Assembly: GCF_027257935.1 (NCBI RefSeq)
Contig: NZ_JANZKW010000001.1
Location: 1,054,001-1,118,000 of the forward strand
DNA length: 64,000 bases
Direction: 5' to 3'
Source: Chitinimonas sp. BJYL2
Lineage (GTDB): Bacteria > Pseudomonadota > Gammaproteobacteria > Burkholderiales > Chitinimonadaceae
Below, one piece after another: positions 33,306 through 50,200 of this stretch (its first letter is position 1; every line of letters starts with the position of its first letter). The position numbers were made by a program, and so were the translations under genes. A model generated the notes under the pieces. The model saw nothing but the letters and a program-made list of their open reading frames with translations, ran no database searches and was not told where the DNA came from.

Positions 33306-33345
33306 GCCGGCAACAAGCGATGGTCGCCCCAACCAGTTTTCAAGT

Positions 33346-33522
33346 TTCCCTGCGGCGCTCGACCCGGTTCGATATTCTTTGAACCAATATATTGACCTCG
33401 GTTTCTGGCTAGATGCGTCTGTTGTGCGCTACCCGTTTGTGGTGGTGCCTGATTTCAGCATCGCTGGTTACCACTTGAACCGTTCGGTTCAAGATGTGAG
33501 CCGGGACGGCGCCCGCGGGGAT
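33346..33522 (+). ncRNA. ssrS: 6S RNA
   Basis: The 240-nt space between zapA and fau is where 6S RNA lies in many proteobacteria. The closing stem pairs CCCTGCGGCGC (33348-33358) with GGCGCCCGCGGGG (33508-33520), and CCCGG with CCGGG. The apical-side hairpin CTTGAACCG-TT-CGGTTCAAG (33474-33493) matches the diagnostic TTGAACC...GGTTCAA element of known 6S RNAs. A large central bubble separates the two. 6S RNA mimics an open promoter and holds sigma-70 RNA polymerase. Ends are approximate. Confidence 0.82.
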
Positions 33523-33544
33523 CCCCACCCCGCACAAATCCCCC

Positions 33545-47770: not shown

Positions 47771-48688
47771 TCAGATCGCGGCCGGGCTGTAACGGTGGAA
47801 GGCGGCGGGCACGTCGTCGGCGTGCTGAAAGCTGACAAACTCGTAGTTGTCCGGATCGGCCAGGAGTTCGCGCAAGAGCTTGTTGTTCATGGCATGACCT
47901 GATTTGAAGCCTTCAAACGCGGCAATCAGCGGGTAGCCGAGGATGTACAGGTCGCCAATCGCGTCGAGCGCCTTGTGGCGCACGAATTCGTCTTCGAAAC
48001 GCAGGCCTTCCTGGTTAAGCACCTTGTACTCATCGAGCACGATGGCGTTTTCCATACTGCCGCCTTGGCCCAGGTTATTGGTGCGCATGTACTCGACCTC
48101 ATGCATGAAGCCAAAGGTGCGCGCCCGTGCGACCTCTTTGATGTAGCTGGTCTCGGCGAAATCGAGCTCCACCGTCTGCGCGGCCTTCTGGAAGGCCGGG
48201 TGCTTGAACTCGATGGTCAGGCTGATCTTGTAGCCTTCGTGCGGCTTGAAACGTACCCATTTGTCGCCTTCGACGGCTTCGACGGGCTTCTTGACGCGCA
48301 CATAGCGCTTGCGAGCGGGTTTCTGTTCCTTCACGCCGGCCTGCTGGATCAGGTACAGGAACGGTGCTGCGCTGCCATCCATGATGGGCATCTCGGACGC
48401 AGTGACATCGACGATCACATTGTCGATACCCAGGCCGGCAAAGGCCGACATCAGGTGCTCGATGGTGGCCACGCGCACGCCATCCTTGACCAGCGTGGAC
48501 GAGAGCCGCGTGTCATTGACCAGATCGGGACCGACCTTGAACGAGGGTTTGTCGGCCAGATCGGCACGGCGGAACACGATGCCGGTATCGGCCGGCGCGG
48601 GCGACAGCGTCAGCTCGACCTTGTCGCCCGAGTGCAGACCCACGCCCACGGCGCGGATGGATTCTTTGAGGGTGCGCTGGTAAATCAT
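47771..48688 (-). CDS. lpxC: UDP-3-O-acyl-N-acetylglucosamine deacetylase
   Basis: The 305-residue zinc enzyme commits UDP-GlcNAc to lipid A. It begins [20 protein letters not shown] with [19 protein letters not shown] (zinc His) and the C-terminal [14 protein letters not shown] and [14 protein letters not shown]. The ATG at 48688 fits the family; an ATG three codons earlier (48697) is possible and a start at 48835 is not. It is the usual gene downstream of ftsZ. A 118-bp inverted repeat lies between the two. Confidence 0.96.
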
Positions 48689-48897
48689 CTGGCTCATCCA
48701 GTCGGTGATGTACCCCCGGCCTGCTGGCGGGATGCTCGCTCGCCATCGTACGCCGGACGCCCCGGGAGAGGGCGGAACGTCCGGACGTGCGGCAGACGCA
48801 AGGGGCACGCAGCCACCGATTTTGCCATATCGCAAAACCGGAACCGATTGAACCTTGCTATTGCGGCGTTAGGTCGTGTTACCACCTAGCGCTGTTA

Positions 48898-49015
48898 GGA
48901 TGGAAAGGAATCGTAGCGAGCAGCCCGTGGCGTGGTCGAGAGGCGCAGTCGTACGTCATGTACGACGAGCATCGCAGGCCGCGTCACGGGTTGCGCAGTA
49001 GATTCTCTTCCATCC
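48898..49015. repeat. 118-bp near-complete inverted repeat between ftsZ and lpxC
   Basis: The ends GGATGGAA and TTCCATCC match perfectly, then AGGAATC and GATTCTC, GCAGCCCGTG and CACGGGTTGC, and the centre GTCGTAC-GTCAT-GTACGAC is perfect. The element folds as one long, slightly bulged hairpin. It starts 4 nt after the ftsZ stop. There is no T-run, so it is not a simple terminator. The rest of the 330-nt gap, 48689-48897, carries no gene I can support. It could be a mobile palindromic repeat, an mRNA stabiliser or a regulatory RNA element. Confidence 0.85.
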
Positions 49016-49018
49016 GAC

Positions 49019-50200
49019 TCAGTCAGCCTGCTTGCGCAGGAAGGCCGGAATGTCCATGTCACCACCGGCAAACACGGCGCCACGCGACGATTCCACCGAA
49101 GCACCCACGCTGCCGGCGCGGCGGCCGGTGCGGAACACGGCAGGGGTATCGAGCTCGTCGTAGTTCATGGCCGGCATGGCATCGTCGGTACCCGTACGCT
49201 GCACCACCGTCAGGTTCGGCATCTTCTTGTCGACACGGCCACCCAGACCCGTGGCGACCAGGGTCACGCGGATGCTGTCGCCCATGTTTTCGTCGAAGGC
49301 GGTACCGAAGATGATGCGGGCATCTTCCGAGGTGTAGGCCTTGATGGTGTCCATGACTTCATGGACTTCCTTCATCTTCAGGCTGTAGTCGGCGGTGATG
49401 TTGACCAGCACGCCGCGGGCGCCGTTCAAGCTGATGTCTTCCAGCAGCGGGCTGTTCACAGCCGATTCGGCAGCCTGGCGTGCACGATCCACGCCCTCGG
49501 CATGGGCCGAGCCCATCATGGCCATGCCCATCTCGGTCATCACGGCCTTCACGTCGGCGAAGTCCACGTTCACGAGGCCAGGCACATTGATGATTTCGGC
49601 GATGCCGGCCACGGCACCCTTGAGCACGTCGTCGGCGGCCTTGAAGGCATCCTTGAACGAGACATCCTCACCCAGCACCTGCATCAGCTTGTCGTTGGGG
49701 ATGATGATCAGCGAATCAACGTGCTTCTGCAGCGCTTCGATACCGGCTTGCGCAGCCTTCTGGCGCTTGCCTTCGAAAGCGAACGGACGGGTCACCACAC
49801 CGACGGTGAGGATGCCCTTTTCACGCGCGACTTCGGCCACGACCGGTGCAGCACCGGTGCCGGTGCCGCCACCCATGCCGGCGGTGATGAACACCATGTC
49901 GGCGCCTTCGAGCAGTTCCGAAATGCGTTCACGGTCTTCTTCGGCCGCGGCGCGGCCGATATCGGGATTGGCGCCTGCGCCCAGACCCTTGGTCAGCGTA
50001 CCGCCGAGCTGAACCAGGTTGTCGGCGCGGTTGCGCTTGAGCGCTTGTGCGTCGGTGTTGGCGCAGATGAACTCCACGCCGGTGACGCCGGCGGCGATCA
50101 TGTGATCGACAGCGTTACCGCCGCAACCACCGACGCCGACGACCTTGATACGGGCGACCGGCACCACGTCTTGTGCTGCTTCCAGAAACGAAATAGGCAT
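49019..50200 (-). CDS. ftsZ: Cell division protein FtsZ
   Basis: The 393-residue tubulin homologue polymerises with GTP at midcell. It has the GTP-binding start [17 protein letters not shown] and the tubulin signature [16 protein letters not shown], then [11 protein letters not shown] and a linker. It ends with the conserved tail [11 protein letters not shown], which binds FtsA and ZapD-type partners. A GAGGAGAG site precedes the ATG. It is the last dcw gene; a long inverted repeat follows. Confidence 0.98.

Follow-up and report, generated by a model that had tools for sequence, protein, structure and literature searches.

The Beta-proteobacterial repeat element (BRE) is described, in the accessible text of Hot et al. 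(2011), as ~90 bp long, intergenic and variable in copy number, with up to 29 copies, in Polaromonas, and as forming tandem arrays in which no or few nucleotides lie between the units; a copy in B. pertussis Tohama I is placed at 3605317-3605401 (PMC3110155). The GTAG/CGTC REPs are characterized, in the part of the source available, as dispersed sequences of 20-40 bp with one short hairpin, mostly located downstream of genes, the GTAG kind being linked to RAYTs (PMC3733652). ERIC and NEMIS, as far as the corresponding extract goes, have short TIRs ending in TA and are associated with target-site duplications (PMC2229807).

The window, i.e. the whole 64,000-nt stretch of Chitinimonas sp. BJYL2 DNA that was analysed, contains a 118-nt hairpin the base of which is 3 nt beyond the stop codon of ftsZ (49021-49019, - strand), rather than 4 nt as stated in an earlier note on this sequence. 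The next - strand gene beyond ftsZ is lpxC, and Pfam confirms both gene identities (Table 1). The end-to-end fold proposed there is also supported, in that the named arms are present and the fold of the 136-nt stretch 48890-49025 has a z of -8.7, equalled by none of 200 shuffles. The term 'near-perfect' was, however, an overstatement, because asymmetric internal loops and mismatches interrupt the stem and an ungapped self-comparison of the element matches at 46 of 118 positions. As RNA, the + strand of the element is predicted to form 46 pairs (-73.4 kcal/mol) and the - strand 45 pairs (-54.1 kcal/mol). Scans of 48600-49300 gave no T-tailed terminator-like site on either strand, in agreement with the lack of a T-tail reported previously, and no promoter-like site by a simple sigma-70 scan.

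Table 1. Coordinates of the hairpin, its parts and the neighbouring genes in the window
Feature	Position	Strand	Basis or remark
ftsZ	49019..50200	-	Pfam Tubulin, FtsZ_C; stop abutted by element
lpxC	47771..48835	-	Pfam LpxC; longest ORF, true start probably further in
Whole element	48898..49015	+	Better-folding strand; antisense to ftsZ and lpxC; z -8.7
Outer stem, 5' arm, variable	48898..48912	+	A2 columns 6-20
Outer stem, 3' arm	49001..49015	+	A2 columns 110-124; ends 3 nt from ftsZ stop
Boundary motif GTAGCGAGC, first CGAG side	48913..48921	+	Alignment; partly pattern-selected
Boundary motif GCGCAGTAG, first CGCAG side	48993..49001	+	Alignment; partly pattern-selected
Middle stem, 5' arm, variable, 15 nt	48922..48936	+	Arm length, covariation
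Middle stem, 3' arm, variable, 15 nt	48978..48992	+	Arm length, covariation
Conserved core, two further CGAG/CGCAG internal loops and apical stem-loop	48937..48977	+	Pattern match, alignment
Apical stem-loop within core	48948-48954 / 48960-48966	+	

The genome and its relatives were searched by DNA and by a covariance model, as the note had suggested. At the DNA level, the own genome (8 contigs, 3.45 Mb) was found to have one further copy, 79% similar, ahead of carA, and both copies were also found by the covariance model (R1), which was built from 62 rows, the window copy among them, and matches the window at 48893-49021 (E 9e-30, 116.6 bits). Within the genus, 4 of 7 genomes have a DNA match and 5 of 7 a covariance-model match. 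R1 matches are present in 82 of 399 genomes, and 46 of 159 genera, of the order and in 18 of 274 genomes of a class-wide draw, the own genome being included in both counts; copy numbers obtained with R1 saturate and are lower bounds only, since 8 to 13 candidates were scored per genome. Sequence patterns gave a compatible distribution, with the core pattern matching in 12 of the 399 genomes (reversed control, 0) and the outer-motif pattern in 58 (six matches in all for the reversed pattern), the richest by the latter being G076 (26 copies), G223 (24), and G176 (19).

In named genomes, the core pattern matches at least 120 stretches, mostly betaproteobacterial, including in Massilia, Ralstonia, Zoogloea, Azoarcus, Herbaspirillum, Variovorax, and others; a contig of Chitinimonas viridis (L163) also carries the core. 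A few non-betaproteobacterial titles are among the matches listed, e.g. Solimonas, Methylovulum, two clostridial bins and two haloarchaea; by eye the Solimonas copy has the flanking motifs, whereas the clostridial and Halosimplex matches do not. A longer version of ~150 nt has the same outer motif and outer stem with a different interior. In the family of genome G144, R1 gives weak matches in 28 of 250 genomes (best 41.8 bits), with mainly the apical module in common; long-armed related hairpins in this family (L239, L241, L243-L246, L248, L249) often follow an AGGAG..ATG-like start, and some, judging by this arrangement, may be translated.

The window element had no match in an E. coli collection (5,426 genomes, blastn, E 0.01) or in phage and plasmid records, nor did a Ralstonia copy match plasmids. 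No viral contig matched the core pattern; the outer-motif pattern gave 18 viral stretches, of which by fold only two look like real elements. These two full elements are in IMG/VR contigs (L253 at 2481-2596, L257 at 535-645), which may be prophages or miscalled chromosome pieces. Rfam has no family at gathering score over the element, the permissive best being 18.6 bits, below every cut-off.

The evidence for a conserved shape comes from 109 distinct copies, all aligned, that fit the pattern boundary motif, core, boundary motif; these comprise 93 of the 120 listed named-genome loci and 16 copies from other sources, the 27 other loci having been dropped as chance matches, duplicates or altered-boundary copies. 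Because the copies were chosen by a pattern with those motifs, the invariance of the boundary motifs is in part by construction. Arm lengths were free in the pattern (10-24 nt), and the left middle arm is nonetheless 15 nt in 105 of the 109 copies and the right 14-16 nt in all of them. Covariation was assessed for 62 of the 63 copies with 15/15 arms (L065 omitted), with rows treated as independent, i.e. ignoring kinship, as in the strand-bias statistics below; 95.0% of cells pair, compensatory change is seen at 31 of 44 pairs, including 13 of the 14 counted in the outer stem, and there are 498 double-change cells, compared with 145.7 in shuffles (reached in 0 of 500) and 80 to 137 in a slid-arm control. 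The fold is thus maintained through compensatory change. Unpaired features also recur; by reading of the fold, the CGAG-facing-CGCAG loop is present three times, and there are recurrent unpaired sites, e.g. a G opposite A at columns 37/94 in 55 of the 62 rows.

Two individual variants of the shape were observed. In the L022 copy (core at 1501, - strand), the right outer arm complements the left one exactly, boundary motif included, as though template switching inside the palindrome had corrected it. Near rpsT-like genes, the L085 and L118 copies depart from the usual 3' boundary, additional sequence being present ahead of GCGCAGTAG.

The earlier note had considered a chance or decayed palindrome probable if the element were single-copy and not conserved and no transcript end or processed RNA mapped to it; the first two parts fail, given the second copy and the family across genera. 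That the hairpin has such an origin, or is an ordinary intrinsic terminator, might be argued from the presence of only two copies in its own genome, but is extremely improbable in the light of its z, the conserved covarying family and the lack of a T-tail. The existence of the family refutes chance pairing in itself.

The aligned copies also carry information on which strand folds. Among the cells of the 62 rows, read on the + strand, G.T occurs 129 times and A.C 39 times, compared with a composition-predicted ratio of 1.46 and at most 1.65 in 500 shuffles; since this G.T excess is beyond that expected from composition, the + strand appears to be the folding strand. The + strand is, moreover, predicted to fold lower than the - strand in 102 of the 109 copies. 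The G.T/A.C bias suggests that the + strand, antisense to ftsZ, is the selected folding strand rather than that of the ftsZ mRNA. Local GC skew over 8 kb, taken as a proxy for fork direction, mixes in gene orientation and carries no inference here; by it the + strand is G-rich in 29 of the 49 copies that abut a stop and in 8 of the 33 that do not.

The position of the copies relative to genes follows a sharp rule. In 60 of 109 copies, an antisense gene has its stop codon at -6 to +8 nt relative to the hairpin base, taken as the foot of the 15-bp outer stem on its 3' side, compared with 2.3% for random placement in 262 intergenic gaps at the same loci; on the other side, abutment of a sense gene occurs in 6 of 109 (control 2.1%). 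Gene calls were made with our own codon-usage caller, without annotation, and the calls fit ftsZ and lpxC. For 46 of the 60 abutting copies, base and stop are 0 to 3 nt apart, a closeness that random insertion alone leaves unexplained. The remaining 49 copies show no such abutment within the limits used, 40 of them having no antisense stop within 500 nt and the others one further off than the limits. Clustering sorts the 60 abutted genes into 46 groups, and their stops are of all three kinds (TGA 35, TAA 14, TAG 11); the stop rule is therefore not a matter of one short target sequence. Pfam names among them include FtsZ, ribosomal L7/L12, DNA polymerase III beta, KAS III, ABC transporter ATPase, and SRP54. 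This spread over clusters does not sustain, as a rule, the special tie to dosage-sensitive genes raised in the earlier note, and any influence of the element on ftsZ is a possibility drawn from position alone. The ftsZ stop is abutted both in Chitinimonas and in Burkholderiales bacterium 8X (L078), the outer stem of the latter looking unrelated.

It may be that the element acts mainly in the 3' UTR of the abutted mRNA, as REPs do in E. coli, and is kept because a stop-proximal hairpin stabilizes the message or slows termination. The stop-codon abutment is consistent with such a role, as is the presence of some predicted hairpin behind ftsZ in most relatives, and ribosome stalling is reported, in the portion of the source available, for REPs that lie no more than 15 nt from a stop (PMC12306157). 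However, A.C on the + strand corresponds to G.U on the other, so selection on the abutted mRNA predicts a bias opposite to that observed, and the G.T excess persists (84 vs 28) when the count is restricted to the 39 abutting copies of the alignment. The mRNA strand is the less stable fold in nearly all copies, and the non-abutting copies also argue against this role, which we consider unlikely.

Alternatively, the copies may be, or contain, antisense small RNAs, such that a folded transcript of the + strand acts on the opposing gene at its 3' end. That the favoured folding strand is antisense to the abutted gene accords with this possibility; in addition, according to the accessible parts of the reports, the BRE copy bprJ of B. 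pertussis was detected as an RNA antisense to both neighbours (PMC3110155) and changes in an RNase III mutant (PMC8386462). The link to BRE is, however, one of description only, no promoter-like site was found near the window element, the flanks of different copies have no common promoter by eye, and presence differs between congeners. We regard this small RNA reading as rather unlikely.

Comparison with the described systems brings out which features are shared. Integron attC sites have a folded strand that is antisense to the gene, a base near the stop and a variable stem with conserved unpaired features, all of which are also seen here; by contrast with attC sites, the genes abutted by the element include housekeeping genes. 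With BRE, the element shares a betaproteobacterial distribution, an intergenic location, occurrence in multiple copies of variable number and, at some loci, a tandem arrangement; its boundary-to-boundary stretch is ~88-90 nt compared with ~90 bp for BRE. Tandem arrays were observed at G003:C1:551402-551661 (two units among those listed) and G006:C9:133735-134198 (several units), the same two genes flanking both. The units in Chitinimonas recur every ~110-130 nt, whereas BRE units, as described, are nearly contiguous. The element is probably related to BRE, as the same or a sister family, a likeness by description since the available BRE text gives neither a fold nor a comparable sequence. Six core sequence strings of the element occur in none of 5.39 million papers, and BRE, in a text without structure, is the one likely earlier description found in the literature searched.

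Like the GTAG/CGTC REPs, as far as their accessible description goes, the element is palindromic, dispersed and located downstream of genes, with a GTAG-like foot (PMC3733652). By contrast with the single REP hairpin with its unpaired terminal GTAG, the element is ~118 nt long with three repeated internal loops, its GTAG (or GTCG) lies inside the stem between the outer and middle helices, and it lacks the association with a RAYT (Y1), copy-rich genomes being without one. ERIC and NEMIS, in the extract available, resemble the element as intergenic, non-autonomous long stem-loops of about 100-200 bp (PMC2229807), but differ from it in that no target-site duplication was detected here and the E. 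coli collection holds no DNA match. The unusual points of the element are that its folding strand is antisense and that the stop-codon rule is so sharp. The strongly covarying fold, the preferred folding strand and the strict placement defined here make the spread and effect of the element directly testable and provide a covariance model absent from Rfam.

As to how copies might move, Y1 transposase genes (Pfam PF01797) are present in 13 of 20 genomes searched, including the own genome. None was found in the copy-rich G109, G184, and G176, nor in G004 and G006, and none adjoins the element among the matches listed for the 20 genomes; a dedicated RAYT as mobilizer is thus not supported. Flank repeats of at least 4 nt occur in 21 of 109 copies, compared with 17.3 in permuted pairs (maximum 30), and target-site duplication at the ends is therefore not supported, with the proviso that the stem ends were set by a scoring rule, which might overlook short duplications. 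Nor did the congener sites compared include a clean empty one with exact junctions. Since these searches gave no mobilizing enzyme, target-site duplication or clean empty site, movement is inferred from distribution.

The hairpin belongs to a set of sequences that is multi-copy, keeps its shape, favours the + strand and has about half of its sampled copies at an opposite-strand stop codon. On balance, we think it probable, with modest confidence, that it is one copy of a non-autonomous dispersed structured repeat of betaproteobacteria, mobile or once mobile, the best reading of its kind being a non-autonomous mobile palindrome like REP/ERIC. The palindromic mobile repeat that the earlier note listed among its options has thus gained from the two own-genome copies, the many in other genera, and the site states that differ among congeners. 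Such a repeat would, given the strand bias, have folded single-stranded DNA or RNA as its moving form, with the enzyme encoded outside the element; copies immediately after a stop codon would be retained since insertion at that place costs no coding sequence. Transcription of ftsZ would yield the complementary strand, with a weaker, but still long, 3'-UTR hairpin, which might be a passive 3'-end barrier between ftsZ and lpxC. With about half of the sampled copies behind the stops of varied genes, all facing the same way, the spread and function of the repeat constitute a testable puzzle.

A broader proposal, which we regard as doubtful, is that of a superfamily of shape-encoded mobile hairpins, ~118 to 150 nt long, with modular CGAG/CGCAG internal loops and variable but compensated arms, that settle behind any stop codon with the folded strand antisense. 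If true, insertion would follow a route that recognizes where translation of a message ends, e.g. through an RNA or single-strand intermediate, by an enzyme yet to be named.

The non-autonomous repeat favoured above is consistent with the states of individual sites. Behind ftsZ, the element is present in the own genome (G000) and G005 and, by eye, as a decayed one in G004; G003 and G006 have a short hairpin, the outermost bases of which resemble the G005 stem, G002, G007, G008, and G009 have other predicted hairpins near the stop, and G001 has no compact predicted hairpin. At the carA site, the element is in G000 only, and six congeners have, by eye, a short hairpin or short spacer. These differences fit gain and loss, in either direction, where a hairpin is tolerated.

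Other structures were observed at these sites and elsewhere. Behind the ftsZ stop of G002 (L039), there is a different long palindrome, of GTGAAACGTGAAA-like repeats. All seven genus genomes have a conserved leader hairpin (GGGAACGGGATAGG...CCTATCCCGTT) ahead of carA (L228-L234), which may be an attenuator or other leader control. The window also contains a 6S RNA at 33344-33525 (+) (Rfam RF00013, 51.3 bits).
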